From positions 1 to 41,497 of the forward strand of contig CACZMI010000038.1 of the NCBI GenBank assembly GCA_902782245.1: a stretch of 41,497 nucleotides of DNA, in the 5' to 3' direction. This document shows, piece after piece, positions 1-4,287 of this stretch (the stretch's first letter is position 1; each line of letters starts with the position of its first letter). The notes under the pieces were generated by a model, which was not told the DNA's origin, did no database searches, and worked only from the letters and a program-made list of their open reading frames with translations. A program made the position numbers and the translations under genes. The DNA is from an uncultured Bacteroidales bacterium. GTDB taxonomy: Bacteria > Bacteroidota > Bacteroidia > Bacteroidales > Bacteroidaceae.

Positions 1-103
1 CGGCAATAGCCGAAAAACTGAACTCGGATGTCTTGTTCATGCCCTTGGCAAAAACAAGTTTTGCAGGCGCGATAACGCCTGACAGGACTGTTTTGATACT
101 CAT
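1..103 (-). CDS. 5' end of an FMN-riboswitch-controlled gene, product not recognised (partial)
   Basis: An open frame starts at an ATG (103-101) and runs off the left edge of the window after 34 codons. It reads MSIKTVLSGVIAPAKLVF and onward, with no stop. A purine-rich stretch lies just upstream of the ATG, and an FMN riboswitch ends about 12 nt before the start, so expression should fall when FMN is plentiful. Genes under this riboswitch class are usually for riboflavin synthesis or uptake, or flavin-dependent enzymes. The visible 34 residues do not match any family I can name with confidence, so no product is assigned. Confidence 0.7.
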   Translation of the reverse strand, partial: MSIKTVLSGVIAPAKLVFAKGMNKTSEFSFSAIA

Positions 104-114
104 AAATTCTTCTT

Positions 115-212
115 CCATCCAGACTATACTGTCGGTACCGTAATCGCAACGGTTCAGCCTTTCGGCTCGCGGACTCTACCGCCGGTCGGGGAATTGCGCC
201 CCACCCTGAAGT
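115..212 (-). promoter_or_regulatory. FMN riboswitch (RFN element)
   Basis: Read on the minus strand, the segment contains the conserved RFN blocks in order: a GGGGCG...TTCCCCGACCGGCGGT block, then AGTCCGCGAGC, then a stem ending in the 3' block AGTCTGGATG. The ATG of the downstream gene follows within about 15 nt of the 3' block. This proximity suggests control at translation initiation, because the expression platform must overlap the start region, rather than by a separate terminator. A possible promoter lies upstream (TTTG, 19 nt, GAAATTTG around 225-260, minus strand), with one mismatch to the Bacteroidetes -7 consensus. Confidence 0.93.
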
Positions 213-297
213 TTTACGCTTGCAAATTTCCGCTTTCTGCACGACTCTGCAAAGCTTTTTCTGCTAAAAAAGATAAAGTTTATGATAAATGGTAAGG

Positions 298-515
298 CCG
301 GTTTCCTCCACCTGAATATAAGTATTCTGGAGACGACGTTACGGGGCTACTCAGAACCCCTCCGAGACCTAAACATCGATCGCCTCCCTTTTAGCCACCT
401 GAAGGTGTCTAACGGTCGTTGGACGTAACGATGTTCTTAACGGTCTCTCCAGGGCCTTCGCTCACGCCCCTTCACTGACGCTCCCGAATACTTATATACA
501 GGCTCCGTAAACCGG
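298..515 (+). repeat. Fold-back element E1 (type A, structured)
   Basis: A roughly 218-nt intergenic unit with complementary ends: left arm about 298-341, right arm about 477-515. Inside are nested helices: GGGGC (343-347) with GCCCC (466-470), GAGACC (364-369) with GGTCTC (442-447), and AACAT (372-376) with ATGTT (431-435). These enclose two small hairpins, CACC(TGAA)GGTG at 396-407 and CGTTG(GACG)TAACG at 417-430. The core 368-443 matches the reverse complement of 2323-2398 at 73 of 76 positions. Arms and inner helices differ from E2 in sequence yet stay paired. It lies between the 3' end of the plug-domain gene and the riboswitch gene's promoter region. It contains no credible reading frame. 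Confidence 0.85.
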
Positions 516-536
516 AATGCCACGTGCACCCATAAA

Positions 537-570
537 GTACAAAAGGGGTCTGTCCCCTTTTGTATCATTT
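537..570 (-). repeat. REP-like palindrome R1 at a gene 3' end
   Basis: In minus-strand orientation the motif is AATGATACAAAAGGGG, a short loop (ACAGA), then CCCCTTTTGTAC. It follows the plug-domain gene directly, and the TGA of the motif is that gene's stop codon (567-565). The stem is about 11 bp, but here the distal side reads CTTTATG, without the run of T seen in R2-R4. The same motif occurs at 2503-2538, 10012-10047 and 27659-27720. It may act as a 3' end hairpin or weak terminator. Confidence 0.8.
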
Positions 571-1116
571 TTTGGTTTTGATTTCTATTACTCCGTTCTT
601 TCCTTTCTCGCCCCAGACGGTTACTGCAGCTTTTCCTTTCAGGACGGTCATGGACCGGACGTTTTCAGCATCTATATCTTCGATGCTTCCGTTGAAGACT
701 TCATCGTCTACAATAATGAGCGGTGTTTCACCTTCTTTAAAGGCACTCTTCAGTTCCCCCTCGGAAAAGCCGTTGGACTTATATGTAGAAGATGTTATGC
801 TTCCTGATTCCGACGTTGAAGACTTATATGTTCTTGATGATTTGCCAGTTGGGTCTGTATTAACATCTGAACTCATGAACATATCAAATGGGTCCGATAT
901 TTTTGTCTTGATATTATGCTCTTTGATTACCCCTTCGGTAGAGTTCTTGTAGTTTATGTCATACTTGACGATGGTCTTTGAAACCAGTTGGGATCCGTCA
1001 AATGCGGTAATGGTCTGACCGTCTATTACATAGCGGTTGATTGTGTCGGTCGGGGCTGTCATATCATTGGAAACTGACAGCGCAGCAAACAATGCTGAGA
1101 TTAATAATGCGTTCAT
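565..1116 (-). CDS. Secreted protein with an isolated TonB-receptor plug-like domain
   Basis: A 183-residue protein if started at the ATG at 1116-1114; a TTG two codons earlier is possible. It has a short signal peptide (NALLISALFAALSVS). The last 55 residues resemble the plug segment of SusC/RagA-type TonB-dependent receptors: PLIIVDDEVFNGSIEDID, then MTVLKGKAAVTVWGEKGKNG, then VIEIKTKK. No beta-barrel follows: the protein stops where a receptor would continue. The middle is Ser/Thr-rich. It is the third gene of an operon with an ECF sigma factor and a membrane-anchored putative anti-sigma factor, 19 nt after the latter. By context it could signal to or be controlled by that pair. The stop codon lies inside palindrome R1. 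Function is inferred from domain resemblance only. Confidence 0.75.
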   Translation of the reverse strand: MNALLISALFAALSVSNDMTAPTDTINRYVIDGQTITAFDGSQLVSKTIVKYDINYKNSTEGVIKEHNIKTKISDPFDMFMSSDVNTDPTGKSSRTYKSSTSESGSITSSTYKSNGFSEGELKSAFKEGETPLIIVDDEVFNGSIEDIDAENVRSMTVLKGKAAVTVWGEKGKNGVIEIKTKK

Positions 1117-1135
1117 ATTCAATTATTTAATAGAG

Positions 1136-1666
1136 TTAGTTTAATGCGGTGAATGATAGAGAACTGGCATCGGAATTACACGTCATCGAGTAGCTCCGTT
1201 CCTTGCCGTCTGTAAGTTTAACGGTTATGACAACCGTGCTGCCGTGAGGTTCAGCCTTAACGGATTCAATCTCTCCCACCTCAATCTTGGAGATCATCTC
1301 CATACCCTCCAGAATCTGCATGGTGCTGATAGCCGTCTCAGTCTCCGGTAGCATCTGTTTATGGCCGATATGCAAGCTCACAAGCATCAGTATAACCGCT
1401 GCGGCTGCCACAGAACTCCATCTCAGAATCATGCGTACAGGCCTCCCACCCTTGGTTATACGGTCAAATTCGGCCGTATCAATCATGTCCGATGCACCAG
1501 CGTGCGTCATCCTGATAAGGGCTGCAATCTGCTCCTCATCGGCATCAGGCTGATGCGATGCATAGTACTGGGCCAGCATCTGCTCCTCGCGGATGGTAGT
1601 ATCGGCATCCAGATATCGCTCTGCAAGAGCCATGCGGAACTGTTTGTTTTCAAGCATAGTATTCAT
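1136..1666 (-). CDS. Putative anti-sigma factor (single-pass membrane protein)
   Basis: 176 residues. The N-terminal ~80 residues are soluble and charged. One hydrophobic segment at about residues 83-102 (SSVAAAAVILMLVSLHIGHK) would anchor it in the inner membrane, with a C-terminal ~75-residue periplasmic part. Size, topology and position match anti-sigma regulators that follow ECF sigma genes in Bacteroidetes. The start ATG overlaps the sigma stop by 4 nt (ATGA), implying translational coupling and matched stoichiometry. No FecR or zinc-finger ZAS motif (HxxxCxxC) is visible, so the assignment rests on topology and gene order. Confidence 0.65.
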   Translation of the reverse strand: MNTMLENKQFRMALAERYLDADTTIREEQMLAQYYASHQPDADEEQIAALIRMTHAGASDMIDTAEFDRITKGGRPVRMILRWSSVAAAAVILMLVSLHIGHKQMLPETETAISTMQILEGMEMISKIEVGEIESVKAEPHGSTVVITVKLTDGKERSYSMTCNSDASSLSFTALN

Positions 1667-2163
1667 AAGTCCTTCTTTATTTGTTCCATCATCAGCCTGC
1701 GGGCTGCTGAAAGCGTTGTTTTAATACTGGTTTTGGGACATCCCGTCACCTCCTCCATCTCATCAAGAGAGAATCCCATCTCATTCCTAAGATGCAGATA
1801 ATGCCTCTGTGTAGGTGTGAGCAGTGCCAGAAGCGACTCCCTGACGGCATTTATATCGGCCTCATCGGTCAAATCCGATGCCGACGGACCTCCCGCCAAA
1901 TCAACCCCGTCAATAGACTGCATCACAGCTCTGTTACCGCGCAGATGCGCAAGACAAACCTTCTTGGTTACAGTAACAGCCAATGCCTCAGGATCCCGGA
2001 TCTCATAACCGTTCTCCGTCTGACTCCAAAGCATGAGCAGCGACTCCTGCACAATATCATCCGGTGCATCCTGTATCCCCGAATCCTTCACGAAACGGCC
2101 GGCCATAAGCATCAGCCTGCTTCGTATCCGTAGAGTCAACTGTTCAAAATCCTGTCTAGTCAT
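1663..2163 (-). CDS. RNA polymerase sigma factor, ECF subfamily
   Basis: 166 residues, typical ECF length. Sigma region 2 is at about residues 10-75, with the characteristic DAPDDIVQESLLMLWSQ stretch. Region 4 is at about residues 110-160, with a helix-turn-helix in GFSLDEMEEVTGCPKTSIKT followed by a basic helix. It heads a three-gene leftward operon with the anti-sigma and plug-domain genes. The upstream intergenic region is occupied by fold-back element E2, whose left arm ends about 80 nt before the start, so any promoter must lie within or next to that element. The target regulon cannot be read from this window. Confidence 0.88.
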   Translation of the reverse strand: MTRQDFEQLTLRIRSRLMLMAGRFVKDSGIQDAPDDIVQESLLMLWSQTENGYEIRDPEALAVTVTKKVCLAHLRGNRAVMQSIDGVDLAGGPSASDLTDEADINAVRESLLALLTPTQRHYLHLRNEMGFSLDEMEEVTGCPKTSIKTTLSAARRLMMEQIKKDL

Positions 2164-2243
2164 AATCTCGCGTCTCTACACCATAGTTGCAGAAAACCAC
2201 CAAAAGTAAATCGAAAACCCCAAATATTTCCCCAGTGAGCAAA

Positions 2244-2474
2244 GGTTTTCTTTTACGCGGAGCCGGACTATACCCTTGTGGGACCATCAGTGCAGCGACG
2301 TTAAGCGAGAGCCCCGGAAAGGCCGTTAAGAACATCGTTGCGTTCAACGACCGTTAGACACCTTTAGGTGGCTAAAAGGGAGGCGATCGATGTTTAGGCC
2401 TTGGAGGGAGCTTGAGTAGTCGCGGAACGTTGCGTCCCACAAGGGTATAGTCCGGCGTAGTGTAAAAGAAAACC
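2244..2474 (-). repeat. Fold-back element E2 (type A, structured)
   Basis: A roughly 231-nt unit with 41-nt complementary arms (2244-2284 and 2434-2474; one 5-nt internal mismatch). Read on the minus strand it has the same architecture as E1: GCGAC/GTCGC (2419-2423 with 2295-2299) replaces GGGGC/GCCCC, and AAGGCC/GGCCTT (2397-2402 with 2319-2324) replaces GAGACC/GGTCTC. The 76-nt core is 2323-2398. The three core differences from E1 fall in two tetraloops and in one G-T versus G-C pair. The right arm includes the T-tract of the aspS terminator, and the left arm carries an inverted copy of it. This element fills most of the 369-bp gap between aspS and the sigma gene. Confidence 0.85.
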
Positions 2475-2498
2475 GCTCCTCAATAACGAGAAGCGGCT
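2462..2498 (-). terminator. Rho-independent terminator of aspS
   Basis: On the minus strand, AGCCGCTTCTC, a GTTATT loop, then GAGGAGCGG followed by TTTTCTTTT. It lies about 35 nt downstream of the aspS stop. Its T-tract overlaps the outer arm of element E2. Confidence 0.8.
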
Positions 2499-2502
2499 AA
2501 AA

Positions 2503-2538
2503 TAGTACAAAAGGGGTCTGTCCCCTTTTGTATCATTT
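2503..2538 (-). repeat. REP-like palindrome R2 at the aspS 3' end
   Basis: Minus strand: AAATGATACAAAAGGGG, ACAGA, CCCCTTTTGTACTATTTTA. The TGA in the motif is the aspS stop codon (2535-2533). A near-identical unit is found at R1, R3 and R4, always in the same orientation relative to the upstream gene. Confidence 0.85.
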
Positions 2539-4287
2539 CAGGTCAATTTTAAGCTGAAGTTCGTCTAGCTGAGACTGGTCAAGAGGACCGGGGGCATCCA
2601 GCATGACGTCGCGGCCTGAGTTGTTCTTGGGGAACGCGATGCAGTCGCGGATGCTGTCAAGCTTTGCAAAGATGCTCACAAAGCGGTCAAGTCCGAATGC
2701 CAGACCACCGTGAGGAGGTGCGCCGAACTTGAATGCGTTCATCAGGAATCCGAACTTGGCCTGAGCCTGCTCAGGAGTAAAGCCCAGGATCTTGAATATG
2801 GTAGCCTGCAGCTTGCTGTCGTGGATACGGATGGAGCCGCCGCCAACCTCGATACCGTTTATAACTATATCGTATGCATTGGCGCGAACGCTTGCAGGAT
2901 CAGTATCCAGAAGAGGAATATCCTCGGGCTTGGGTGATGTGAACGGATGGTGCATAGCCATGAGGCGGTTCTCCTCATCACTCCACTCGTACATGGGGAA
3001 GTCAATCACCCACAGGCACTTGAACTGGTTCTTGTCACGGAGGCCAAGCTCATCGGCCACCTTAAGACGGAGCTCGGAGAGCTGCTTGCGGGTCTTCATG
3101 GCGTCATCGCCTGAGAGAATAAGTATAAGGTCACCTGCCTCGGCGTTCATGGCAGCCTTAAGCTGCTGCAGAACCTCCTGGGAGTAGAACTTATCGACCG
3201 ATGACTTGACGCTGCCGTCAGCCTCAACGCGGGCGTAAACCATACCCTTGGCACCAATCTGAGGACGCTTAACGTACTCGGTAAGTGCATCAATCTGTTT
3301 GCGTGTATAAGTAGCGGCACCCTTGGCGCAGATACCACCTATGTAAGCGGCATCGTCAAACACACCGAATCCGTAGCCCTTGAGAACATCCATAAGTTCA
3401 ACAAAGTGCATGTCAAAGCGCAGATCCGGTTTGTCAGAGCCGTAGTATTTCATAGCGTCCTGCCAAGTCATACGCTGGAAGGGATCCTTCATCTCTATGC
3501 CCAGGATGCTCTTGAACAGATGCTTTGCCATAGCCTCAAAGATCTGCAGGATATCCTCCTGCTCCACAAACGACATCTCGCAGTCAATCTGAGTGAACTC
3601 CGGCTGACGGTCGGCACGCAGGTCCTCGTCACGGAAACACTTGGCAATCTGGAAATAACGGTCAAATCCCGATACCATAAGCAGCTGCTTAAGAATCTGG
3701 GGGCTCTGAGGCAGAGCGTAGAACTGACCGGGATTCATGCGTGAAGGTACCACGAAGTCACGTGCGCCCTCAGGAGTGGAGTTGATCAGTATAGGAGTCT
3801 CAACCTCCATAAAGTTCAGGTCATCCAGGAACTTGCGGATCTCCATAACCATCTTGTGGCGCAGTTCCAGGTTCTTGCGTACGCACTGGCGGCGCAGGTC
3901 AAGATAGCGGTATTTCATACGCAGGTCATCACCGCCGTCGGTATCGTCCTCAATGGTAAAGGGAGGCGTATCGGCCGCATTGATAACGTTAAGAGTATTT
4001 ACCAGAATCTCTATGTCACCTGTAGGAATCTTGGAGTTCTTGCTTGAGCGCTCGCTCACCTTACCGGTAATCTGGATCACGAATTCACGTCCCAGACGGC
4101 TGGCCTGCTCGCACAGGGCGGCATCGGTAGCATCGTCAAACACAAGCTGGGTTATGCCGTAGCGGTCACGAAGGTCAACAAAGACCATACCACCCATTTT
4201 CCTAACTCTCTGAACCCATCCTGCCAGTGTAACGGTCGTTCCGGCATCGGCCAGGCGGAGTTCTCCACAAGTTTTGCTTCTAAACAT
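2533..4287 (-). CDS. aspS: Aspartyl-tRNA synthetase
   Basis: 584 residues, the normal length of the bacterial-type enzyme that charges tRNA-Asp in the cytoplasm. An N-terminal OB-fold anticodon-binding domain occupies about residues 1-105. Class II motif 1 is around [20 protein letters not shown]. Motif 2 is in [18 protein letters not shown]. The bacterial insertion (GAD) domain sits in the middle, and motif 3 is near the C-terminus in [13 protein letters not shown]. The ATG at 4287 gives the expected N-terminus ([19 protein letters not shown]). It is monocistronic: its own terminator (2462-2498) follows, and a -7 element (TAAATTTG, 4318-4311) lies 24 nt upstream. The stop codon is part of palindrome R2. 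Confidence 0.98.

Follow-up and report, generated by a model that had tools for sequence, protein, structure and literature searches.

Background

Among described genetic elements, the nearest kinds to the subject of this report are the REP (repetitive extragenic palindromic) and REPIN (REP doublet forming hairpin) repeats and the Flavo-1 RNA motif. Here we analyze two intergenic hairpin elements, E1 and E2, in a stretch of 41,497 nucleotides (nt) from an uncultured Bacteroidales bacterium of the family Bacteroidaceae (contig CACZMI010000038.1 of assembly GCA_902782245.1; the whole stretch is hereafter termed the window), together with their homologs, which we designate by our own genome (G) and locus (L) labels. 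We think it somewhat more likely than not that both elements are copies of one mobile repeat of Bacteroidota, neither coding nor autonomous and akin to the REPs or to miniature inverted-repeat transposable elements (MITEs), in which the folded strand would be the functional form.

REPs, REPINs and bacterial interspersed mosaic elements (BIMEs), with their REP-associated tyrosine transposases (RAYTs), resemble the present element in being intergenic, palindromic and present in many copies, and REPs likewise lie in both orientations and near the 3' ends of genes. However, the REP unit is put at 20-40 nt in the accessible part of one account (PMC3733652), as against about 220 nt for the element, which further differs in that its internal loops are conserved while its stems are free to vary. 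Flavo-1 (RF01705) is also a hairpin with internal loops from Bacteroidetes, but its 76-nt model has a different sequence and gave no match to E1 or E2 at E-values up to 10. In Flavobacterium psychrophilum its hits are reported to lie sense or antisense to transcribed regions indistinctly, and the portion of that report available gives no function (PMC9723704). Integron attC sites, in which RYYYAAC and GTTRRRY boxes pair at the base of the hairpin, appear to differ in that the element is conserved apically and variable at its base, a comparison made by eye without an integrase search. MITEs have terminal repeats in common with a parent insertion sequence (IS); those of Bacteroidota, of which BrickBuilt of Porphyromonas gingivalis is said to be an example, are non-coding and many-copy like the element, which by description, without a sequence comparison, differs in having variable ends and a conserved center. 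Finally, ERIC (enterobacterial repetitive intergenic consensus) elements are palindromic repeats found between genes, 100-200 bp long and RNA-like in their fold, a likeness by description only, ERIC being from another phylum. The family was not found described in the literature titles and abstract openings searched, which mostly did not extend to subscription papers.

Results and discussion

A covarying fold with near-fixed internal loops

E1 and E2 (Table 1) had been proposed in a sequence-only reading of the window to be copies of a probable undescribed structured RNA or foldable single-stranded DNA (ssDNA) element. The 76-nt core on which that proposal was founded is indeed common to both, with 73 of 76 positions identical and the differences at core positions 34, 55 and 59, and the two outer helices said to carry compensatory changes are present in the sequence and could be mapped to coordinates. 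Folded as RNA, E1 has a z-score of -4.97 and E2 one of -9.99, and none of 200 dinucleotide shuffles is as stable. RNAalifold, applied to an alignment of 54 copies (leaving out near-duplicates, short flanks, the inserted or truncated L015, L019, L021, L045 and L046, and then L018, L030 and L031), returned 34 pairs, of which 22 show two-sided changes. When the set was enlarged to 104 matches, 97 of them distinct (100 loci used, with L018, L030 and L031 put back), two-sided changes were seen in 27 of the 34 modeled pairs, and 96.1% of cells are paired. For the 97 distinct copies the covariation score is 0.357, against 0.140 in shuffled alignments (sd 0.005; 0 of 500 as high) and at most 0.072 with partners slid; this alignment was fitted to the model and includes most of the 54-copy set, whereas the 54-copy alignment was not model-fitted. 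Thus, covariation among further homologs, the test on which the sequence-only reading had staked itself beforehand, goes well beyond what two copies might show by chance.

The resulting unit is a long imperfect hairpin of about 220 nt, represented by a covariance model of 167 positions, in which the internal-loop modules and the apical helix are conserved and the stems vary freely. Near-fixed in the genus are two pairs of opposed internal-loop modules, namely CTAAAC / TTCTTAACGG and GGCTACTC / CGCTTACGCC. One element of the earlier fold has to be given up: the hairpin drawn as CGTTG(nACG)yAACG overlaps the helix AACATCG/CGATGTT, and the 3-bp CGT/ACG form that is commonest in the 54 copies is nearly invariant and hence without support from covariation. 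In Rfam (release 15), gathering scores were reached in the window by a flavin mononucleotide (FMN) riboswitch and tRNA only, so that E1 and E2 belong to no family at that score; a relaxed search of window positions 1-2700 at E-values up to 10 added only sub-threshold matches to unrelated families. With this and the strong covariation, the description given in the sequence-only reading is borne out. We also noted a second short repeat, resembling CCTTATTTTATTTTGCTACGCAAAAGG, within the left arm of L018, L021, L045 and L046 and also in L314, with a similar one at an element-free site.

Copy number and spread

With the E1 core as BLAST query, 21 of the 37 same-genus genomes gave matches, the most in any one being 16. 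The covariance model R1, built from the 54 copies, found matches in 14 of 201 genomes of the family, distributed over 3 of 30 genera; 10 of the 12 listed same-genus genomes were positive, and the window's own genome has 10 matches, two of them partial. As at most 14 candidates were scored per genome and all 14 matched in three genomes, these copy counts are lower bounds. R1 also matched in G009, G022 and G024, which had given no BLAST match, and thus some BLAST-negative genomes do hold copies. A search of a second genus with a diverged copy as query was positive in 4 of 15 genomes. These searches indicate that E1 and E2 are two members of a large dispersed set. No match to E1 was found in the phage and plasmid collections.

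Among named genomes, the pattern CCTAAACG-N(28-58)-CGTTCTTAACGG occurs in at least 116 stretches, and among the matches listed 78 of the 80 that could be assigned are from Bacteroidota: many are from the window's genus, and others include Saprospiraceae (up to five listed in one genome) and Flavobacterium lotistagni. Seven matches in viral contigs fall in coding-like sequence and were set aside as chance, as were one match in Nitrospira and one in Clostridiaceae. The relatives outside the genus that were read (17 of them aligned) contain the same internal-loop modules with, in most, a different apex, AACTCGC..GCTCAAACA, and form scattered, often multi-copy sets across other Bacteroidota. Model R2, built from these relatives, matched 6 of 395 genomes of a phylum sample at E-values up to 1e-4 (at most 10 candidates scored per genome). 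The apex pattern gave 49 hits in 14 of the 395 genomes against 9 hits in 8 for the reversed control, and single hits may be chance; an exact pattern was found in one of the 395, the window's own. Copies L083 and L096 of genus 9, in which both of the modules known from the window's family are present, connect the genus type with the relatives; the R1 matches to L082, L083 and L096 are on the reverse of the presumed element strand, and L084 and L095 were left out of the reading.

In one genome ten listed copies lie within about 80 kb (G067 C2:303-382 kb; L350, L351), with a sharp left end that often falls just past a stop codon. They sit among genes that by eye resemble toxin-antitoxin and ATPase genes, and are followed at the 3' end by a tandem repeat that varies. 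A sub-threshold Flavo-1 hit (L121 6008-6069, minus strand, 34.8 bits; gathering score 42) lies beside a relative, not within it.

A possible pseudoknot in the relatives

Many relatives begin with an A/T-rich 5' hairpin, whose loop is potentially able to pair with a segment just before the main stem, and the two might form a pseudoknot. Among 48 distinct items, which include hairpins that are plainly not 5' element hairpins (e.g. L160, L233, L234, L236, L237, L356), 17 loops find at least six complementary bases downstream; permutation gave a mean of 4.8 such loops (maximum 10 in 500 permutations), and reversed loops gave 0. A directed search further yielded 27 non-identical instances of a CTTGA(A/C/T) loop with (T/G/A)TCAAG; these were chosen for their complementarity, and only the 48-item permutation count constitutes a test. 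Such pairing is spoken against by one genome, in which the loops CTTGGC, CTTGCC and CTTAAC face a constant partner GTCAAG, and by another group in which CATTGAT loops have just 3-5 matching bases. The length of stem S1 is not correlated with the length of the linker of the possible pseudoknot (Spearman 0.07), and inspection by eye found no 5' hairpin in the window's genus.

The strand, and a possible family of small-RNA genes

The sequence-only reading took a G-T pair as favoring an RNA read in the E1-plus direction, an argument that proves weak, as the strand signals conflict over 3,226 cells: G.U occurs 43 times against 32 for A.C (G.U on the other strand), and T.C mismatches (G.A on the other strand) 51 times against 9 for G.A, with 33 unpaired cells coming from one pair. 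Apical loops on the E1-plus strand are of the form cUNCGg in 44 of 54 parsed copies, 43 of the 97 copies being unparsed by the pattern. The reverse complement of this type of loop, C-GNA-G, is a stable DNA triloop. For another motif, Weinberg et al. treated UUCG loops as an argument that favors RNA and not ssDNA (PMC2864571). On balance we lean, weakly, towards the E1-plus strand as RNA.

The least unlikely of the alternatives to a mobile repeat is a dispersed family of small-RNA genes, each copy giving a structured trans-acting RNA of about 200 nt, for example a protein decoy. The covariation, the prevalence of cUNCGg loops, and an A-rich linker with a covarying loop in the relatives would all agree with it. 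However, copy numbers reaching 16 per genome, the occurrence in every orientation, the 16 of 37 same-genus genomes without a BLAST match (the covariance-model matches in three of them notwithstanding) and the conflicting strand signals make it improbable.

Genomic position, element-free sites and terminators

The orientations of the flanking genes were evaluated for 125 of 131 copies, and in 113 both neighbors could be called by a simple longest-open-reading-frame rule. They are distributed as -- 33, ++ 30, +- 26 and -+ 24, and so do not match the fixed orientation upstream of a gene expected of a cis-regulatory leader or riboswitch. The copies lie nearer to the 3' ends of genes, at a median of 39 nt after an upstream co-oriented gene and 26-52 nt before a facing gene, compared with 70-120 nt from gene starts. 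Hairpins resembling terminators lie on the same strand in the 110 nt upstream of 15 of 125 copies, compared with 21 of 1500 random windows; the other three positions have them in 7, 4 and 1 of 125, and 11 of the 15 upstream ones are in ++ contexts. For targeting of terminators in the manner of group IIC introns, this amounts to a modest excess only.

When the joined flanks of 8 copies were used in searches, at least 6 had orthologous sites with one match across the junction, and the other two had none among the matches listed. The element is missing from all of the orthologous loci aligned, 14 in a single piece and one in two pieces. Cores and arms, moreover, have separate histories: the nearest copy by core is also the nearest by arms in only 21 of 68 copies (68 of 72 used). 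E1 has its entire core in common with a copy that sits at a different locus, aspS, in another species (similarity ratio 1.0; arms 0.489), whereas E1's own orthologue has a similarity of 0.967 in the arms and 0.857 in the core.

A second alternative, that the copies are host-maintained bidirectional terminators or 3'-end stabilizers without mobility, has in its favor the proximity to gene 3' ends, the excess of upstream same-strand hairpins and the simple terminator found at some element-free sites. We regard it as distinctly unlikely: the hairpins at the other positions are few and most of the upstream ones lie where a gene's own terminator is expected, an ordinary terminator needs neither conserved internal loops nor a 76-nt core, 24 of 113 copies are between divergent genes, and copies come and go at orthologous sites.

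The search for a partner enzyme

Genes for tyrosine (Y1) transposases are present in 23 of 37 genus genomes, and none was found in the multi-copy G034, G007, G012 and G014; many of the genomes searched for partner genes are incomplete. At same-genus Y1 loci the motifs NH(V/L)H and YIHQNP occur in 22 of 30. The same motifs are reported for the TnpA-REP subclass 2.6 of Bacteroidetes, whose genes are described, in the part of the source available, as flanked by atypical structures (PMC6006769). That the element is the REP of such a Y1 transposase, possibly one of these atypical structures, would agree with these motifs and with a loose apex pattern (3 substitutions allowed; no control) that has flank hits at 23 of 51 Y1 loci. 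We nonetheless consider it quite improbable, as among the 51 loci listed the genus-type element was found by R1 at none and R2 matched at one only (L369), with an IS200-type gene inside the element, and as several multi-copy genomes yielded no Y1 gene. The Y1 flanks that were read carry other palindromes, of the GGGG-TCTG-CCCC or GGGGACGGTTC types; REP-like palindromes occur at 6 of 30 Y1 loci (on both sides in L244, L247, L253 and L263) versus 8 of 72 element loci.

A Y1 gene lying between two elements in G316 was entertained as an autonomous unit and rejected, being an IS200-type gene inside one element copy. Long hairpins of other sequence (e.g. CAAAGGGGACGGTTC...GAACCGTCCCCTTTG) flank subclass-2.6-like Y1 genes at 5 of 10 loci read (L254, L259, L251, L248 and L243). 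Reverse transcriptase (PF00078), a candidate partner in the manner of group II introns or retrons, was discarded, being found in just 7 of 37 genomes: it is absent from the matches in the multi-copy G003, G033, G034, G007, G012 and G014, and present in the multi-copy G025 and G028 and in G019. TnpB (PF07282), considered on an omega RNA reading, was likewise rejected, with 0 of 24 genomes over the cut-off and 3 sub-threshold matches; IscB was outside this search. Clustering of the neighboring reading frames revealed no obvious transposase in the 25 largest clusters, as judged by eye from first residues and not by Pfam; the largest cluster consists of a spurious frame that runs across the element.

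That the arms are a quasi-palindrome artefact, kept complementary by template switching without function, would suit their wide divergence with retained self-complementarity and the tandem partial duplications of the left arm at the left ends of L058 and L017, but we give it very little credence, as template switching would erase mismatches too and the opposed loops are near-invariant across the genus and recur in relatives.

The case for a mobile repeat

A mobile structured repeat fits better than an RNA gene, given that the family is many-copy and its sites are polymorphic. On this reading a trans-acting factor would recognize the shape and loops of a folded single strand, either RNA or ssDNA exposed in replication, and would copy or move the unit. 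The arms would diverge because selection acts on their complementarity and not on their sequence, near-identical cores might be kept alike by gene conversion, and the hairpins may, as a by-product, end or protect transcripts.

Several observations weigh against the mobile repeat. Covariation alone fits an RNA gene family equally well, and the aspS-side copy persists in several species, which also fits a maintained host function. The 15 alignments of element-free sites, examined by eye, show no target-site duplication or shared terminal inverted repeats; the joined flanks there are just 72-88% identical in the one-piece matches, and several of these sites hold another hairpin instead. With no target duplication and other hairpins at several empty sites, precise insertion cannot be claimed. 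No IS or MITE family was recognised in the element, though no comparison with an IS library was made. Of the partners searched, Y1 transposase, reverse transcriptase and TnpB, none is supported. In addition, R2 at its threshold has no match in the window's own genome, which leaves the shared modules as what links the genus type to the relatives.

A bolder form of the mobile-repeat interpretation, which we hold to be rather unlikely, would make the family an RNA-mediated class of bacterial repeats across Bacteroidota resembling SINEs (short interspersed nuclear elements): a module-bearing rod, with a 5' pseudoknot in many lineages, copied into new sites between genes by an enzyme of the host or of a helper, with recombining cores.

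Features of the window

Table 1. Elements and associated features in the window
Feature	Position	Strand	Basis
E1 whole hairpin	298..515, ends approximate	+	span of the sequence-only reading; covariance model R1 match 327-492, 170.9 bits (L001)
E1 76-nt core, CCTAAAC to TTCTTAACGG	368..443	+	bounded by conserved internal-loop module; 73/76 identical to E2 core
E1 helix AACATCG/CGATGTT	372-378/429-435 (372..435)	+	model helix 6: two-sided changes in 3/7 pairs
E1 apical helix, loop TGAA	387..415	+	model helix 7: two-sided changes in 9/9 pairs; two innermost pairs out of register in the mapping (alignment gap)
E1 outer helices	328-335/479-485, 344-347/466-469, 357-359/452-454, 364-369/442-447 (328..485)	+	model helices 1-5, each with two-sided changes; outermost pair 328/485 is T.C
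E2 whole hairpin	2244..2474, ends approximate	-	covariance model R1 match 2439-2273 (-), 168.6 bits (L002)
E2 76-nt core	2323..2398 (2398-2323 as read)	-	aligned to E1 core
Terminator-like hairpin and T-run, directly 5' of E2 and following a class-II tRNA synthetase gene taken to be aspS	2464..2498	-	sequence; gene by Pfam

A 27-bp perfect repeat, TACAAAAGGGGTCTGTCCCCTTTTGTA, adjoins each element (window 538-564 and 2506-2532). It looks like an ordinary REPIN, a reading that follows from the same kind of palindrome being found on both sides of the Y1 genes in the four loci named above. Between E2 and E1 lies a three-gene cassette (window 565-2163, minus strand), with a sigma-70-like gene (sub-cut-off Pfam matches) and two frames without a Pfam match. 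The FMN riboswitch (window 103-217, minus strand) precedes a reading frame whose relatives resemble by eye a TonB-dependent receptor, possibly pointing to flavin-regulated uptake at the outer membrane. In G029 and G003 the riboswitch gene directly follows the aspS-side element.

Conclusions

Repeats are usually recognized by their sequence, and this family is conserved mainly in its shape and loop modules, so that repeat finders working from sequence would be prone to break it up or overlook it. The family offers a deep and ready covariation data set, along with a testable question, namely which enzyme reads the element. It may also underlie shared spacer structure and the exchange of cores in the genomes of Bacteroidota.

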